Below, piece after piece: positions 27,382 through 34,828 of a DNA stretch of 34,828 nt. Made by a program: the position numbers and the translations under genes. This DNA comes from Anaerofustis stercorihominis (GTDB lineage Bacteria; Bacillota; Clostridia; Eubacteriales; Anaerofustaceae): contig NZ_SPHL01000020.1 in the NCBI RefSeq assembly GCF_005844425.1, forward strand, positions 1-34,828, in the 5' to 3' direction. The stretch's first letter is position 1. Each line of letters starts with the position of its first letter. A model generated the notes under the pieces. The model did no database searches. It was not told the DNA's origin and saw nothing but the letters and a program-made list of their open reading frames with translations.

Positions 27382-29358
27382 ATGAGTGTTGAAACTTTAA
27401 AGTTTTTTGCCCCTGTTGCGGGTATTATAGCGCTTCTTTTTGCGTTATATCTTGCTTCTTCGATCAATAAAGTTGATCAAGGAACAGATAGAATGAAAGA
27501 AATTTCATCTCACATTCACGAAGGTGCTATGGCTTTCTTAACAAGTGAATACAAATATATCGTTATTTTTGCTGTAGTATTATTCGCTATTTTATTTGGC
27601 TTAATAGGTTGGGAAACAGCAGTTTGTTTCTTAATTGGTGCTTTATTCTCAGTTTTAGCTGGTTTCTTTGGTATGCAAGTTGCTACTAAAGCTAATTCAA
27701 GAACAGCTGCTTCTGCTAAAGACAAAGGCATGGGTGCTGCATTAAAAGTTGCTTTTAACGGTGGTAGCGTTATGGGTCTATGTGTTGTAGGTCTTGGTGC
27801 TATCGGTGTTAGTATCGTATACATGATCTTTGCTGATGTAAACATCATCACAGGTTTTGGTCTTGGTGCTTCTTCTATCGCTTTATTCGGTAGAGTTGGT
27901 GGTGGTATCTATACAAAAGCTGCTGACGTTGGAGCTGACCTTGTAGGTAAAGTTGAAGCCGGTATTCCGGAAGATGACCCAAGAAACCCAGCTGTTATCG
28001 CTGATAACGTAGGTGATAACGTAGGGGACGTTGCAGGTATGGGTTCTGACTTATTTGAATCATATGTTGGTTCTATTATTTCTGCTATGACTCTTGGTGG
28101 ACTTTTACTTGGAAGCATGGAAGCTGTTATGTTCCCATTGGCTCTTGCTGCAGTTGGTATCATTTCTTCAATTATAGGTTCTTTATTCGTTAAAGGCGGA
28201 GAAAATGCTGACCCTCATAAGAGCTTAAATCTTGGTACATATGTAAGCGGTATTCTTGTAATTATCGCTGCTTACTTCTTAACAACTTCTTTACTTAAAG
28301 ATATTACATACTTCTATGCTATTATCGCAGGTCTTGTTTGTGGTATCTTAATCGGTAAAGTTACAGAAGTTTACACATCTGAAGATTACAAATCAGTTAA
28401 GAAAATTGCTAGTCAAAGTGAAACAGGTGCTGCTACAACAATTATTTCTGGTCTTGCTGTTGGTATGATGTCAACTGCTATTCCAATTATCTTAATCGTA
28501 GCTGCTATCTTACTTTCTTATATGTTATCAACAGAAGGTTTATATGGTATTGCTCTTGCTGCTGTTGGTATGCTTTCAACTGCAGGTATGACAATTGCCG
28601 TTGATGCTTATGGTCCAATCTCTGATAACGCTGGTGGTATCGCTGAAATGGCTGAACTTGATGATTCTGTAAGAGAAATTACAGATAAACTTGATAGTGT
28701 AGGTAACACAACTGCTGCTATCGGTAAAGGTTTCGCTATCGGTTCTGCTGCTTTAACAGCTCTTGCTTTATTCGCATCTTACTCAACAGCTGTTGGTATC
28801 AAAGCTATTGACTTACTTGATGTAAAAGTTATTGCAGGTTTATTCATCGGTGGTATGCTTCCTTATGTATTCTCAGCAATCACAATGGAAGCTGTTGGTA
28901 AAGCTGCTAACCAAATGATTGAAGAGGTTAGAAGACAATTTAGAGAAATTCCTGGTATCATGGAAGGTAAAGCTAAACCAGAATATTCTACATGTGTAGA
29001 AATCTCTACAAAAGCTGCATTAAAAGAAATGATTGTTCCTGGTCTTCTTGCAGTAGTAGTTCCATTACTTGTAGGTTACTTCTTAGGTGCTACAGCTCTT
29101 GGTGGTCTTCTTGCAGGTGCACTTGTAACAGGTGTATTAATGGCTATTCAAATGGCTAACTCAGGTGGTGCTTGGGATAACGCTAAAAAATATATTGAAG
29201 GTGGAGCTCACGGCGGTAAAGGTAGTGAAGCTCACAAAGCTGCAGTAGTTGGGGATACAGTAGGTGACCCATTCAAAGATACTTCAGGTCCTTCATTAAA
29301 TATCTTAATCAAATTAATGACAATCGTTGCATTAGTATTTGCTCCACTATTTATGTAA
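27382..29358 (+). CDS. hppA: Membrane-bound ion-pumping pyrophosphatase, K+-dependent type
   Basis: A 658-residue protein with about 16 membrane helices that couples PPi hydrolysis to H+ or Na+ export. The PPi/Mg site is seen in [20 protein letters not shown], then [20 protein letters not shown], and in the C-terminal [17 protein letters not shown]. The segment [15 protein letters not shown] has Ala445 and Gly448 where K+-independent enzymes have Lys and Thr, so it should require K+. Whether it pumps Na+ or H+ is not decided here. TTCGGAGGAGAAAA precedes the ATG. Codon use is strongly biased towards preferred codons, indicating high expression. It ends in a strong terminator. Confidence 0.97.
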
Positions 29359-29393: not shown

Positions 29394-29681
29394 TATTGTA
29401 ATTTTAGATTGTATTTTAATAATATAAATTTAATATATTTTTATTGTAGAAGTAGTGATAAATTAAAGTAAAAATTATATTTAAAATTTATTATTCGATT
29501 TAACATATTATAAATGGAAAGTAGTAAGATATATTTACTATTGTCATTTTATTTTAGGGTTAAATTTAATTAATATAATAAAAAAGACTCAAAAGAGTTT
29601 TTTTATTTAATTTCTTTATGTATATTCTTTGTAAAAGCAAAGTAAATCCTTTGAAATAAAGAAAAATGCCTTTGCTTTTTT
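29394..29681. other. AT-rich gap with an orphan terminator hairpin (29580-29606)
   Basis: No coding frame is supported. At 29580-29606 an A-run, ACTC-(AAAA)-GAGT and a T-run make a terminator-like hairpin about 190 bp beyond the hppA terminator, with no gene directly before it. It may be a backup terminator or end an unannotated small RNA. Confidence 0.5.
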
Positions 29682-29690
29682 TGTTATAAT
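29682..29690 (+). promoter_or_regulatory. Extended -10 promoter candidate for the first yfhO
   Basis: TG-T-TATAAT at 29682-29690, with no recognisable -35. It is about 120 bp upstream of the start codon. Confidence 0.45.
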
Positions 29691-29811
29691 CCATATGTTA
29701 TTTTAAAACAAATAATATTTAAATAATTATTTGATTTGTTAAATATATAGTTTTAATGAGAAATTTAGATAATAAGTTTTGAACAAAATTAATTTTATAA
29801 AAGGGAAAAGC

Positions 29812-32595
29812 ATGGAAAATAACAATAGAAAAGAATTAAAAAATAAAGAAATATGGTATAAAAGGTGGTATGTAATTTATACTTTTCTTTTTTTAGCCTT
29901 GTGTTTCGTTATTTTTTTACCGTTTTTTATAAGCGGTAAGAGTTTTGTATGGGATACGGGAGGGCTTAATACAGGAGACGGATTTGTTCAGCACTTTACA
30001 TCTGCAGTATACTTTGGTAATTACTTTAGAGATATAATACTTAATTTATTAAAAAGTCACGAACTGGTTATTCCAATGTGGGATTTAAGTATCGGAACGG
30101 GGTATGACGTTTTAACATCTCTTAATTATTATGCTTTTGGAGATCCACTTAGCATTTTCTACATATTTACACCGGAAAAATTTATGGGATATACCTTTTC
30201 TTTTGTTATATTTTTAAGGCTTTATTTATCGGGATTATTTTTTTCATTTTTCTGTTTTAACTTTAAAATGAAGAAAACGCCTGTGATTATTGGGGCATTA
30301 TGCTATGTATTCTGCGGGTTTAGTTTGTATTGCTCTATTCGTCATCCATTTTTTATAAACCCTATGATATACCTTCCTTTGCTTCTTTTAGGCATTGAAA
30401 AAGTATTTAAAGGAGGTAAGCCTTATTTATTTATAATAATGGTTACCATAAGCGCTATAAGTAATTTTTACTTTTTATATATGTTAACCATTGCGGTTAT
30501 TATTTACGCTTTTATAAGAGTAATGTATATTTACAAAGAAAAAGGTGTATTTTTAAGAAAGCTTTTATATTACTTCTTTAAATTTCTTTTTTATTATATT
30601 ATTGGTATTCTGCTTTCGGCAGTTATTTTCCTTCCTGTTATAATATCCTTTTTTAACAGCTCAAGGCAGAGCGGTCAGGCTAACAATCTGACACTGGTTT
30701 ATAATTTAAGTTATTATATTAACGTTATAAAAAATATGTTTGCTGCTAATGATATAGGGCTTTGGGCATTTTTAGGATTTAATATTATAAGTATTATTTG
30801 CGGTGGGATTATATATAAAGATAAAAGCAAAAAGGGAAAATATTTAAAGTTTATATTAAGCATTTGTATTATCTCTCTTTTAGTTCCATTTTTTGGATAT
30901 ATAATGAATGGATTTAGTTTTGTGTCAAACAGATGGACCTTTGTTTTTTCATTTGTCATATCATTTATAAGTGTTTATGTAATGGGAGAATTGAAGAATT
31001 TTAAAAATAACATTAAGTTTATAAATGTATTACTTGGTGTGATTTTGTTTTTAAATATTTCTTTGACAGCTTTATATTTATACTTAGGTAAAGATATAAA
31101 ATATTTTTTATTTAACTATATTTTTATATTTATGGGATTTGTTTTCTTGTTTTTGATAAAAAACAGAAAGTACGGTATAAAAAGAATATATATGGTTTTA
31201 CTTATTATTGTTCTTATACAAATTCCTTTTTCTGCCTATATAAAATATTCGCCTTTTACATTAAATTATCCTAAAGAGTTTAAGTCTTATGATAAGCTAA
31301 GCAGTGCCATAAACCAAAAGGAATTTAATTATATAAAAAGCATTGATGAAGAAGAATTATACAGAGTTGATATAAACAACAACAGGTTGAATTATGGACT
31401 TATAAATGATATAAACGGTCTTTCTTCTTATTTCAGCGTTCAAAATAATAACAGCGTAAACTATTTCTTTTTAACCGGTCAGGTTGGACAGGCTACATTA
31501 TCGGGTAATCACGGTTATGACTGCCACCTTATAAGCAATGAACTTAAAGGAGTTAAGTATTTTGTAGGTAAAAATTATAATGCCGATTTGTATAAAGATT
31601 ACAAGGTTATAAAGGAATATGAAGACAGCAAGGTATACAAAAACGAAAATGCTCTTGGGCTTTTTTATACCTATGACAGCGCCATGGATGAAAACACCTT
31701 TAATTCTTTAAATGAATATGACAGAGAAATGGCAATGCTTCAAAGCGTTTATCTGGATAAAGACAGTATAGTTTCAAATGATGATGTTACTTCTTCTTCA
31801 AAGACTTTATTAGATTTAGAAGATCTAATGGAAAATGCACAGTATGACAAAGACAAAATAGAAATTAAAAAGGATAAAATAATAGTGAAGGAAGATGACA
31901 GTGACCTTAGTTTTAATATAGATGTAAATAACAGCGAATGTTACCTTGTAATAGATGATTTTGACTTAAATTTAGACAGTGAAATTAGTAAAGATACTTC
32001 CTTAAAGAGAAAGATAAGACATTTGCTTTATACCCCTGCAAAATATTCTTACATGAACATAAAAATTGACGGAAGCGAAGAGAGTTCTTTTAGATATTCC
32101 ATAAAAACATCTGATAATACTTATTACTTTGGTATAGAAGATTATGTATTGAATCTTGGGTATTATAAAAATGGGTTGCACAACATAAAGATTAACTTTG
32201 ATGAAAAAGGAGAGTATAATTTTTCCGATATGAAAGTAGTATCTCAGCCTATGGATGATTATGATAAATATGTAAATGAGTTAAAAGAAGACAAGGTAGA
32301 GAACTTTACCATAAAAGGAAATACAGTAAGTTTAAAAGTAAATACGAAAGAAGATAAAATAGGGGTGTTATCAATTCCTTATTCAAAAGGCTGGAAGGCT
32401 TATGTGAATGGTAAAGAAGTAGAAATTTTACAAGCAAACATTGACTCTATGGGGATAGAGTTAAACAAAGGTGAAAATGAGGTTGTGTTTACATATTGTA
32501 CTCCGGGGCTTAAAGTGGGGGCTATTGTTTCGCTTGTTACAGCATTTTTATGTATGATTTATATTTTTATTAATAAAAAGAAAAGAAATATTTAA
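29812..32595 (+). CDS. YfhO-family membrane glycosyltransferase, copy 1
   Basis: A 927-residue GT-C-type membrane protein starting at ATG 29812 behind AAAAGGGAAAAGC; an upstream TTG at 29779 has no ribosome site. There are about a dozen helices from residue 18 (WYVIYTFLFLALCFVIFLPF) to about 480, then a large extracytoplasmic domain ending in VLSIPYSKGWKAYVNGKEV, and a final helix with the tail NKKKRNI. YfhO proteins transfer sugars from undecaprenyl-phosphate donors to lipoteichoic acid or other surface glycans. The first 225 residues are about 69% identical by eye to the fused copy at 33690. Its N-terminus (RKELKNKEIWYKRWY) matches the fusion linker there, indicating a shared origin by duplication. 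Confidence 0.88.
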   Translation: MENNNRKELKNKEIWYKRWYVIYTFLFLALCFVIFLPFFISGKSFVWDTGGLNTGDGFVQHFTSAVYFGNYFRDIILNLLKSHELVIPMWDLSIGTGYDVLTSLNYYAFGDPLSIFYIFTPEKFMGYTFSFVIFLRLYLSGLFFSFFCFNFKMKKTPVIIGALCYVFCGFSLYCSIRHPFFINPMIYLPLLLLGIEKVFKGGKPYLFIIMVTISAISNFYFLYMLTIAVIIYAFIRVMYIYKEKGVFLRKLLYYFFKFLFYYIIGILLSAVIFLPVIISFFNSSRQSGQANNLTLVYNLSYYINVIKNMFAANDIGLWAFLGFNIISIICGGIIYKDKSKKGKYLKFILSICIISLLVPFFGYIMNGFSFVSNRWTFVFSFVISFISVYVMGELKNFKNNIKFINVLLGVILFLNISLTALYLYLGKDIKYFLFNYIFIFMGFVFLFLIKNRKYGIKRIYMVLLIIVLIQIPFSAYIKYSPFTLNYPKEFKSYDKLSSAINQKEFNYIKSIDEEELYRVDINNNRLNYGLINDINGLSSYFSVQNNNSVNYFFLTGQVGQATLSGNHGYDCHLISNELKGVKYFVGKNYNADLYKDYKVIKEYEDSKVYKNENALGLFYTYDSAMDENTFNSLNEYDREMAMLQSVYLDKDSIVSNDDVTSSSKTLLDLEDLMENAQYDKDKIEIKKDKIIVKEDDSDLSFNIDVNNSECYLVIDDFDLNLDSEISKDTSLKRKIRHLLYTPAKYSYMNIKIDGSEESSFRYSIKTSDNTYYFGIEDYVLNLGYYKNGLHNIKINFDEKGEYNFSDMKVVSQPMDDYDKYVNELKEDKVENFTIKGNTVSLKVNTKEDKIGVLSIPYSKGWKAYVNGKEVEILQANIDSMGIELNKGENEVVFTYCTPGLKVGAIVSLVTAFLCMIYIFINKKKRNI

Positions 32596-32744: not shown

Positions 32745-33680
32745 ATGAATAGTGGTACTATGTCATTAGTTATACCTGCATATAATGAATCTGAAATAAT
32801 AGAAAATACAGCGAAAGTTGTTGTAAATATATTAAAAGAAGCAAATATACCATTTAAAGTTCTATTTGTAAATGATGGATCAAAAGATGACACATGGGAA
32901 AAAATAAGAAAAATATCAAAAGAATATGATTGTATAGATGGAATATGTTTTTCAAGAAATTTTGGAAAAGAAGCAGCTATTTTTGCAGGACTTCAATATG
33001 CAAAAGGAGACTGCGTTGCTGTAATGGATGCAGATTTGCAGCATCCGCCTGAAACTCTAATTGAGATGTATCAAAAATGGTGTGAAGGATATGAAGTAAT
33101 AGAGGGAATAAAAGCTTCAAGAGGAAAAGAAGGCATTGTTTATAAAATAGGTGCAAAAAGTTTTTATAAACTTATTTCAGATGCAACAGGAATAGATATG
33201 TCAACATCATCAGATTTTAAATTAATGGACAGAAAAGTTGTTGACTCAATAATAAGTTTACCTGAAAGACATTTGTTTTTTAGAGCTTTATCATCATGGG
33301 TAGGATATAAGACAACATATGTAGAATTTGAGGTTCAGGAAAGAATCGGGGGAGAATCTAAATGGTCATTTTCTTCTCTTGTTAAATATGCAGTTAGAAA
33401 CATAACGACATTTTCAACAGCTCCTATGCAGATAGTTTCTTTTGCAGGAATAATATTTTGTATTTTAGCAATAGTAATTGCCATTAGAGCCGTATACCAA
33501 TATTTTGTAGGAATTGCTCTTGGTGGTTTTACAACAGTAATACTTTTAATATTGATACTTGGAGCTATCGTTATGCTATCCCTTGGAATAATAGGATACT
33601 ATATAGCAAAAATCTATGAAGAAGTAAAAGGCAGACCAAGATATATAGTATCAAAAACAGCGAAGGAAGAAGAAAAATAG
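32745..33680 (+). CDS. CsbB/GtrB-like polyprenyl-phosphate glycosyltransferase (GT2)
   Basis: A 311-residue enzyme that loads a sugar from a nucleotide donor onto undecaprenyl phosphate at the inner membrane face. The GT-A domain spans 1-220 with LVIPAYNES, FVNDGSKDDT, the DxD motif Asp95-Ala-Asp97 (VMDADLQHPP) and the late ERIGGESKWSF that is typical of this subgroup. Two C-terminal membrane helices (about 229-251 and 262-287) are the hallmark of CsbB/GtrB proteins. AAAGAGGGAAAC precedes the ATG. The GtrA-YfhO gene follows after 9 bp. Together they provide sugar loading, flipping and final transfer. Confidence 0.93.
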   Translation: MNSGTMSLVIPAYNESEIIENTAKVVVNILKEANIPFKVLFVNDGSKDDTWEKIRKISKEYDCIDGICFSRNFGKEAAIFAGLQYAKGDCVAVMDADLQHPPETLIEMYQKWCEGYEVIEGIKASRGKEGIVYKIGAKSFYKLISDATGIDMSTSSDFKLMDRKVVDSIISLPERHLFFRALSSWVGYKTTYVEFEVQERIGGESKWSFSSLVKYAVRNITTFSTAPMQIVSFAGIIFCILAIVIAIRAVYQYFVGIALGGFTTVILLILILGAIVMLSLGIIGYYIAKIYEEVKGRPRYIVSKTAKEEEK

Positions 33681-33689
33681 GAGAAAATA

Positions 33690-34828
33690 ATGATAGAAAA
33701 AATTAATGGTTTATATGAAAAATATAAAGAAATTATTTTATATATAATTTTTGGGGGTCTTACGACACTTGTAAATTTTGTAATATATTTTGTATTTACG
33801 AATGTATTATCTATAAATTATCTTGTAAGCAATTTTATAGCATGGATAGGTGCTGTTATTTTTGCGTTTTTTACTAACAAGAAATATGTATTTAATGCAA
33901 ATAATACAGAACTTTTTAACTATATTAAAGAATTTGTAATGTTTACCTCTTCAAGAGGATTTTCTTTTTTGGTGGAAACATTTCTTTTATTCCTTGGAGT
34001 AGAATTGATTAAGTTAAATGATGGCATAGTTAAAATTGCAGTAGCTGTAATAGTAGTTATTTTAAATTATTTCTTTACAAAGTTTGTATTTAAGAACAAA
34101 GAGGAAAAAGAAGAAAAAAGAGAGATAGTAAAAGAAAATAAGAAGAATAATCTTAAAGATAGTGAAGTATGGTATAAAAGATGGTATGTTGTGTATACTG
34201 TTTTATTTTTAGTTTCAGCTTTATTTGTTTTCCTTCCTTTTATTGTAACCGGAAGATTATTAATTTGGGATACTCAAGGTATGAATGCCGGTGATGGCTT
34301 TACTCAGCATTATGCATCCGCAGCATATTTAGGTAATTATTTTAGAGATATAATAAAAAATTTAATCTTTAATCATGAACTTATAATTCCTATGTGGGAT
34401 TTAACAGTAGGAACGGGGTATGATATTTTAACATCTCTTAATTATTATGCTCTTGGTGATATTTTAAATGTATTTTATATATTTACACCTGAAAAGTATA
34501 CAGGTTATATGTATTCTTTTCTTATTGTATTTAGACTTTATTTATCAGGATTATTTTTTATATTATTTTGTTTTAAATTCAATAAAAATAAAATGTCTGC
34601 AATTTTAAGTGCCATTGGGTATGTTTTTTGTGGATATTCTTTATATGCATCAATAAGACATCCGTTTTTTATAAATCCAATGATATATCTTCCTTTAATA
34701 TTAATTGGAGTAGAAAATGTTTTAAGAGGTAAAAAACCGTATTTATTTATAATTATGATAACAATAAGTGCAATAAGCAGTTTTTACTTTTTATATATGT
34801 TAACAATTGCTACTATTATTTATGCTTT
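33690..34828 (+). CDS. GtrA-YfhO fusion protein, N-terminal 379 residues (cut by window edge)
   Basis: An open frame runs from ATG 33690 (AGGAGAAAATA ribosome site, 9 bp after the GT2 gene) to the window edge without a stop. Residues 1-136 are a complete four-helix GtrA domain (YIIFGGLTTLVNFVIYF, AFFTNKKYVF, ILNYFFTKFVFK), the proposed flippase for undecaprenyl-phosphate sugars. Residues 137-158 are a Lys/Glu-rich linker. From 160 a YfhO domain begins (WYKRWYVVYTVLF ... GDGFTQHYASAAYLGNYFRD) and is about 69% identical to copy 1 over 224 aligned residues. GtrA (GtcA) and YfhO are normally separate proteins. The frame was read codon by codon through the linker with no stop or slip. Confidence 0.9.
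   Translation, partial: MIEKINGLYEKYKEIILYIIFGGLTTLVNFVIYFVFTNVLSINYLVSNFIAWIGAVIFAFFTNKKYVFNANNTELFNYIKEFVMFTSSRGFSFLVETFLLFLGVELIKLNDGIVKIAVAVIVVILNYFFTKFVFKNKEEKEEKREIVKENKKNNLKDSEVWYKRWYVVYTVLFLVSALFVFLPFIVTGRLLIWDTQGMNAGDGFTQHYASAAYLGNYFRDIIKNLIFNHELIIPMWDLTVGTGYDILTSLNYYALGDILNVFYIFTPEKYTGYMYSFLIVFRLYLSGLFFILFCFKFNKNKMSAILSAIGYVFCGYSLYASIRHPFFINPMIYLPLILIGVENVLRGKKPYLFIIMITISAISSFYFLYMLTIATIIYA

Follow-up and report, generated by a model that had tools for sequence, protein, structure and literature searches.

A GtrA-family protein, the putative flippase of lipid-linked sugars, and a YfhO-type (GT-C) glycosyltransferase are joined in one reading frame at the end of a contig of Anaerofustis stercorihominis, and the same two families are joined in other genomes by fusions that apparently arose separately several times, once in the reverse order. 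The stretch analysed (the window, 34 828 nucleotides) is the whole of contig NZ_SPHL01000020.1 (C12) of assembly GCF_005844425.1 (genome 2.03 Mb, 85 contigs), and it stops at 34828 because the contig ends there. We think it likely that the locus is a three-component transmembrane glycosylation system in which flippase and GT-C transferase are fused and whose acceptor is a wall polymer or surface proteins.

One reading frame carries GtrA, a charged linker and the start of YfhO

The preliminary description of this DNA had proposed that a single frame holds a GtrA domain, a charged linker and a YfhO N-terminus, with a GT2 gene 9 bp upstream, and both proposals stand (Table 1). The frame 33690–34826 has no stop over 379 codons and continues past the window edge. 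It starts with ATG, preceded by a GGAG motif at six bases and by the GT2 stop codon at nine. Both Pfam families score above their curated cut-offs: GtrA_DPMS_TM (PF04138) with E 7.1e-19 and 68.6 bits (cut-off 26.1), and YfhO (PF09586) with E 1.9e-23 and 83.2 bits (cut-off 28.5), the latter over profile positions 7–197 of 835 only, i.e. the first quarter. The linker (aa 135–166) contains 11 K/R and 8 D/E residues. Four transmembrane segments are predicted for the GtrA domain from hydropathy, the K/R counts per loop, ending with the linker, being 3, 0, 4, 1 and 11; the domain is probably N-in/C-in and the linker cytoplasmic by this simple hydropathy and positive-inside count of our own, used in place of a dedicated predictor, which was clear for the window proteins and indecisive for most other fusions (in the L053 fusion 17 K/R fell on one side and 37 on the other, with transmembrane segments missed). 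An AlphaFold model of the 379 residues (mean pLDDT 71.2, pTM 0.64), built on an alignment of 25 rows in which the two halves were unpaired, had block means of 35–66 over aa 11–150, which is nearly all of GtrA, and was uninformative about the interface. A PDB sequence search with the fusion gave no relative (best E 0.96).

Table 1. Features of the GtrA–YfhO locus at the end of the window
Feature	Position	Strand	Basis or remark
H+-pyrophosphatase, upstream synteny anchor of the cassette	27382..29358	+	Pfam
Stand-alone YfhO paralogue, 938 aa	29779..32595	+	Pfam; YfhO tree; GT-C fold
GT2 polyprenyl-phosphate glycosyltransferase, GtrB/CsbB/PgfS-like	32745..33680	+	Pfam; PDB 5ekp; NCBIfam PgfS
GtrA–YfhO fusion ORF	33690..34828	+	Open at contig end, 379 codons seen
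GtrA_DPMS_TM domain, aa 18–133	33741..34088	+	Pfam; family search; GtcA residues; hydropathy
Charged linker, ~aa 134–166, predicted cytoplasmic	34089..34187	+	K/R count per loop
YfhO (GT-C) domain, N-terminal part, aa 179–379	34224..34826	+	Pfam; 74% DNA identity to paralogue

GtrA–YfhO fusions occur in other genomes

Fusions were sought in 61 genomes (the window's own and its relatives), in 391 genomes of the class, scanned twice, and in 398 genomes of the phylum; as at most four or five candidates were scored per genome, all counts are lower bounds. A GtrA-first match over both domains was found in at least eight of the 391 class genomes (G000, G002, where the gene is broken, G027, G142, G145, G177, G343 and G415), and G308 has the reversed order, YfhO first and GtrA last, giving a class total of at least 9/391. 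The second class scan, with a wider profile, returned the same eight GtrA-first genomes and added none among the matches listed, and among those listed for the phylum sample only G000 and G145 appeared. A further fusion, in G032, came from the 61-genome search. The search for GtrA–YfhO architectures suggested in the preliminary description thus yielded, outside the genus, seven uninterrupted GtrA–YfhO ORFs of 1013–1152 aa and one YfhO–GtrA ORF, in eight genomes. Their lengths are 1031 aa (L053), 1021 aa (L054), 1152 aa (L096), 1027 aa (L097), 1044 aa (L098), 1098 aa (L099), 1013 aa (L100) and, for the reversed fusion, 956 aa (L102), where the values for L096–L100 and L102 run from stop to stop and the proteins may be somewhat shorter. 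In all eight fusion proteins tested both Pfam families exceed their cut-offs and the YfhO match reaches profile position 835 of 835. A GT2 gene lies directly upstream in 7/10 fused loci; in the stretches around G145, G343 and G308 none was found by our own profile.

Nine further loci gave no fused GtrA by our own profiles, and G333 was rejected as a fusion candidate, its GtrA being a separate 153-aa protein. The long YfhO ORFs L136, L137, L138 and L142 matched no second Pfam family; in the first of these (L136:6-4811, minus strand, G116; 1602 aa) YfhO begins at aa 400 and the first 399 residues match no Pfam family. Other joins were seen in passing. An ORF of 1134 aa in G358 (L139:1692-5093, minus strand) fuses YfhO to DUF4422, and a 643-aa ORF in G135 (L106:3505-5433, minus strand) has GT87 followed by GtrA, a flippase fused to another GT-C family. 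A single 906-aa ORF in G492 (L104:3444-6161) contains GtrA, GT2 and PMT_2, so that by family assignment one predicted polypeptide would combine the sugar-charging, flipping and GT-C transfer steps of a pathway.

The fusion apparently arose more than once

In a careful GtrA tree of 46 rows, from which 15 long-branched or distant rows had been dropped beforehand, the fused state changes seven times and at least four of these changes are forced by starred branches. A single clade of the nine GtrA-first rows was rejected on this domain (AU p 1.8e-5), as was a clade of the window genus with G027, G032, G415 and G177 (p 0.0056), both values being indicative since the groupings were chosen once a first tree had been seen. 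A quick GtrA tree of all 61 rows gave six changes, at least three forced, and a quick YfhO tree (49 of 52 rows, the three dropped including the C8 piece described below) gave seven, at least six of them forced by starred branches. A change on the tree may be a loss or a gain. Taken together, these trees indicate that the fusion apparently arose separately several times, once in reverse order.

Unfused neighbours of the two families may hint at the route. GtrA followed by YfhO as separate, overlapping frames occurs in G634, G294 and G622, and YfhO followed by separate GtrA in G797 and G259. Among these, G634 adjoins the fusion genome G142 in both trees (100 starred in YfhO, 90 in GtrA), and G622, with the order GT2, GtrA, YfhO, adjoins G415 and G177 in the YfhO tree (99 starred). 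For the reversed fusion of G308 the picture is mixed: its nearest unfused YfhO relatives are arranged YfhO, GtrA, GT2 (G797) and GT2, GtrA, YfhO (G687), and its GtrA falls among other lone GtrA proteins, away from the one in G797.

The preliminary description had read the one fusion as Rosetta-stone evidence. That reading is strengthened by eight uninterrupted fusions elsewhere, in both orders, with a single origin rejected, and recurrent fusions, one reversed, are good Rosetta-stone evidence that GtrA and YfhO are linked in function and probably also physically. One competing account, which we consider a real prospect although a less than even one, is that each fusion is only a merged operon, formed by loss of a stop between neighbours and yielding both parts in equal amounts, with no channelling or special contact. 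It draws on the unfused neighbours in G634, G294, G622, G797 and G259, on the widely varying linkers (one of them Gly-, Ala- and Asp-rich) and on the window's second YfhO without GtrA, which also argues against exclusive channelling. On the other side, a single accident would not account for fusions that recur in several families and in both orders, although selection for equal dosage would explain them too.

The neighbouring genes and the likely acceptor

The GT2 protein (311 aa) matches PDB 5ekp (sll0501, GtrB) with E 1.6e-70. The stand-alone YfhO paralogue starts with TTG (an ATG lies 11 codons further on), is complete and uninterrupted, has no GtrA of its own and shares 69% identity over 219 codons with the fused YfhO part (74% at the DNA level). 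Its model (mean pLDDT 77.3, pTM 0.80) aligns with the yeast OST chain 8age_A (Z 21.6, 437 residues, rmsd 5.4), AftD 6w98_A (Z 20.6, 592 residues, rmsd 5.4), PglB 5ogl_A (Z 18.7, 430 residues, rmsd 4.7) and ArnT 5ezm (Z 16.5, 464 residues, rmsd 5.8), and AftD ranked top in Foldseek (E 1.1e-6); the GT-C fold is thus found in the predicted structure of the paralogue rather than in that of the fusion itself. Residues 673–824 of the model form a beta-sandwich matching Eph ligand-binding domains and a xylanase binding module (Z ~9). As the paralogue is sister to the window's fused YfhO in the quick YfhO tree, to the exclusion of the G002 fusion (98 starred), it most likely arose from a duplicated fusion with GtrA left behind. 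A candidate GtrA remnant before it (29608–30510, aligned to query residues 77–379 through seven stops) was rejected, no GtrA-like run being visible by eye in the three-frame translation, and was taken as read-through noise. The only other GtrA found in the window genome belongs to a 350-aa GT2–GtrA protein on contig C10 (L126:1975-3024).

An ORF with the same start sequence as the H+-pyrophosphatase gene is found at the equivalent place in the other two genus genomes, G002 and G001. No two of the three genus genomes share the same glycosylation genes between this gene and an Xaa-Pro peptidase-like gene (window, 29359 to contig end; L052; L055 and L103), and the spot is a variable glycosylation locus. 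In G001 it is occupied by DUF6020-type proteins, GT2s, DUF2304 proteins and a lone GtrA (Pfam was run on one DUF6020 and one DUF2304 protein), and the fusion query gave no YfhO match in that genome.

Decoration of lipoteichoic acid (LTA), the role put forward in the preliminary description, did not hold up as the leading idea. The sulfatase family that includes LtaS-type enzymes (PF00884) was matched in none of the three genus genomes (the control search gave matches in 10/14), nor in G027 or G032, both of them order-level fusion genomes. It is present in G142, G145, G177, G343, G415 and G308, so LTA is possible there. All three genus genomes encode TagB/TagF-like transferases, and the acceptor is more likely a TagB/TagF-type wall polymer or Pgf-like surface proteins than LTA.

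Of these two, surface proteins alone, with the cassette as a Pgf-like system of PgfS and two PgfM-like membrane enzymes, is a reading to which we give appreciable weight without favouring it. The best NCBIfam matches are PgfS for the GT2 (263.6 bits) and PgfM2 and PgfM1 for the YfhO proteins, yet all scores are far under the curated equivalog cut-offs (500 for the GT2; 1500 and 1400 against 88.4 and 85.5 for the paralogue), and the TagB/TagF-like enzymes offer a polymer as acceptor instead. In L053 the GT2 gene is preceded by an ORF that we take to be GalE-like from a motif at its N-terminus, and the pgf operon holds an epimerase. One GT2 with two YfhO-type proteins is also the make-up of the Streptococcus mutans pgf operon as given in the accessible text of PMC5856776.

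The second half of YfhO and the state of the gene in the genus

The sequence beyond 34828 was sought and the contig was found to end there, but a second contig, C8, ends in a C-terminal piece of YfhO (38912–39718 of 39726), with a stop near that contig end. The three ORFs that follow it, which we take from their sequences to encode an Xaa-Pro peptidase, an antiporter and AlaS, are the same three that follow the fusion in G002, where H+-pyrophosphatase, GT2, GtrA–YfhO and these ORFs stand in one stretch. Because the G002 synteny runs across both contigs, the fused gene very probably spans the gap from C12 to C8, with the C8 piece as its remainder, which leaves about 424 residues (245–668 in paralogue numbering; ~1.3 kb) unassembled. 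In the C8 piece an in-frame TAA occurs ~20 bases short of the contig end; a shifted frame is open there. The G002 copy is split into ORFs of 335 and 723 aa, and three-frame comparison traces the split to what look like three frame changes at A/T runs, all inside a stretch of ~80 bases. These breaks may be sequencing errors or real damage; with the C12–C8 gap, the C8 stop and the G002 frame changes, no uninterrupted full-length GtrA–YfhO gene was read in the genus. A break in the linker or a truncated YfhO had been named beforehand as fatal to the fusion: neither genus copy has a break in the linker, and breaks do occur further into YfhO (G002) and near the end of C8.

It is conceivable on this evidence, although we think it improbable, that the fused gene is a decaying remnant in the genus and that its function falls to the stand-alone YfhO and the other GtrA protein. 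In favour, a gap or breaks in the frame affect each of the genus copies, the frame of the YfhO paralogue is unbroken, the GT2–GtrA protein of C10 is at hand and G001 has its different cassette at the same place. Against decay, the breaks are few and clustered, they fall at A/T runs or the contig end and are flanked by long open frames, and the window's 379 codons are clean. Between window and G002, dN and dS are 0.21 and 0.98 for the GtrA domains and 0.39 and 1.07 for the start of YfhO; between the C8 piece and the window paralogue they are 0.28 and 1.14. The dN/dS ratios of ~0.2 (GtrA) and ~0.25 (C8 piece against paralogue) speak against decay as well, and they place the GtrA and YfhO parts under selection until lately at least. 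Given the GtrA values and the seven uninterrupted GtrA-first fusions in other genomes, the fusion is not a product of chance.

The fused GtrA domain keeps the residues conserved in GtcA

Eight residues are described in the accessible text of PMC7389260 as conserved in >99% of GtcA homologues, and all eight are found in the window GtrA (A59, N63, V67, F68, F85, R89, K115 and N126) with the spacing of Listeria GtcA. According to the same text, glycosylation of both LTA and wall teichoic acid (WTA) is defective in the Listeria R95A and N132A mutants, that of LTA in K121A and that of WTA in F74A and F91A, while A65S, N69A and V73A leave glycosylation unaltered; five of the eight, all kept in the window GtrA, thus give glycosylation defects when mutated. 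The full set is kept in 6/10 fused GtrA domains. The fused GtrA of G032, G027, G415 and G177 (L053, L054, L097 and L098) is without the equivalents of R95, K121 and N132, and on this comparison not all fusions carry a GtcA-like GtrA.

These four domains are one reason to consider that the GtrA part might anchor the GT2 or the GT-C enzyme in the membrane, or recruit it, rather than act as a flippase, another being the dispute over what the mycobacterial GtrA protein Rv3789 does (PMC7389260, accessible text). We judge this quite unlikely for the window protein, which keeps 8/8 residues including the equivalents of R95, K121 and N132 that Listeria needs for LTA and/or WTA glycosylation. An assembly chimera or sequencing artefact, suggested by the position of the gene at a contig end, is refuted for the GtrA–YfhO junction and can be set aside as extremely improbable overall, as G002 has this join too, seven further genomes have it uninterrupted (G177 being a single-contig assembly) and the paralogue has only 74% DNA identity and no exact run in common with the contig end. 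Repeat collapse at the contig end was rejected, no exact run of the C12 end being present in the paralogue nor of the C8 end in the window.

Discussion

The mechanism that we propose assigns charging, flipping and transfer to the three components because the three-component scheme reviewed in PMC8035078 has GT2 charging, GtrA flipping and YfhO transfer, as far as its accessible text goes. On the cytoplasmic face the GT2 would charge undecaprenyl phosphate with a sugar, as its homology to GtrB suggests, and the GtrA part would then move the lipid-linked sugar to the outer face; biochemical proof of flipping by the GtrA family is described as lacking in the accessible part of PMC5836110. The YfhO part, with the GT-C fold and extracellular beta-sandwich seen in the paralogue model, would attach the sugar to an acceptor outside. 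The linker, probably cytoplasmic, would hold flippase beside transferase at a fixed 1:1 ratio. The second YfhO would have to borrow the fused flippase or the other GtrA of the genome. A broader proposal, which we put forward tentatively and hold to be less probable than not, is that direct complexes of GtrA with YfhO-type GT-C enzymes are the rule, that the lipid-linked sugar would be handed over within them without mixing into the membrane pool, and that such a complex has repeatedly been locked into one chain, in either order and with a junction that is probably cytoplasmic; the same would apply to Pgf-type protein glycosylation.

In the accessible literature GtrA proteins are treated as putative flippases and separate components. 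A natural single-chain flippase–transferase makes direct handover of the sugar to the outside enzyme testable, being one protein with a built-in 1:1 complex in which GtrA mutants can be made in cis. Apparently independent fusions, one of them reversed, hint more strongly at physical coupling than one case would by itself. The likeness to PgfS and PgfM suggests that a GtrA partner is worth seeking in streptococcal adhesin glycosylation. No mention of a GtrA–YfhO fusion was found in the accessible text of the openly available papers searched: in papers on GtcA, YfhO and GtrA the words 'fused' and 'fusion' refer to cloning, tags or an instrument or are absent from that text, and the word GtrA is absent from the main text of PMC10584680 and PMC11983588. 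Domain-architecture databases may list the fusion already, and the family of each component and the logic of the pathway are known.

Relation to known systems

The Gtr system of Shigella phage SfX (GtrA–GtrB–GtrX) follows the same three-step logic with a small GtrA and GtrB, as described in the accessible text of PMC7389260, but consists of three separate proteins and has the LPS O-antigen as acceptor. GT2–GtrA (DPM1-type) fusions, such as that on C10, likewise join GtrA to a pathway partner; there the partner is the cytoplasmic charging enzyme, whereas in the window fusion it is the extracellular transferase. The S. mutans Pgf system (PgfS, PgfM1, PgfE and PgfM2) shares one GT2 and two YfhO-type membrane proteins with the window and supplies its best NCBIfam matches, but the window proteins score below the equivalog cut-offs. 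In PMC5856776, as far as its text was accessible, pgf serves streptococcal adhesin glycosylation and the PgfM proteins are modelled as sugar transporters; the words GtrA, YfhO and flippase are absent from the main text. The CsbB–GtcA–YfhO systems of Bacillus, Listeria and Staphylococcus have the same three parts as the window locus, a GtrB-like GT2, a GtrA with the eight conserved residues and a YfhO-type GT-C enzyme. The window locus differs from them in that GtrA and YfhO form one polypeptide instead of separate proteins, that a second YfhO is present, and that the genus is without a match to the sulfatase-family LTA synthase.
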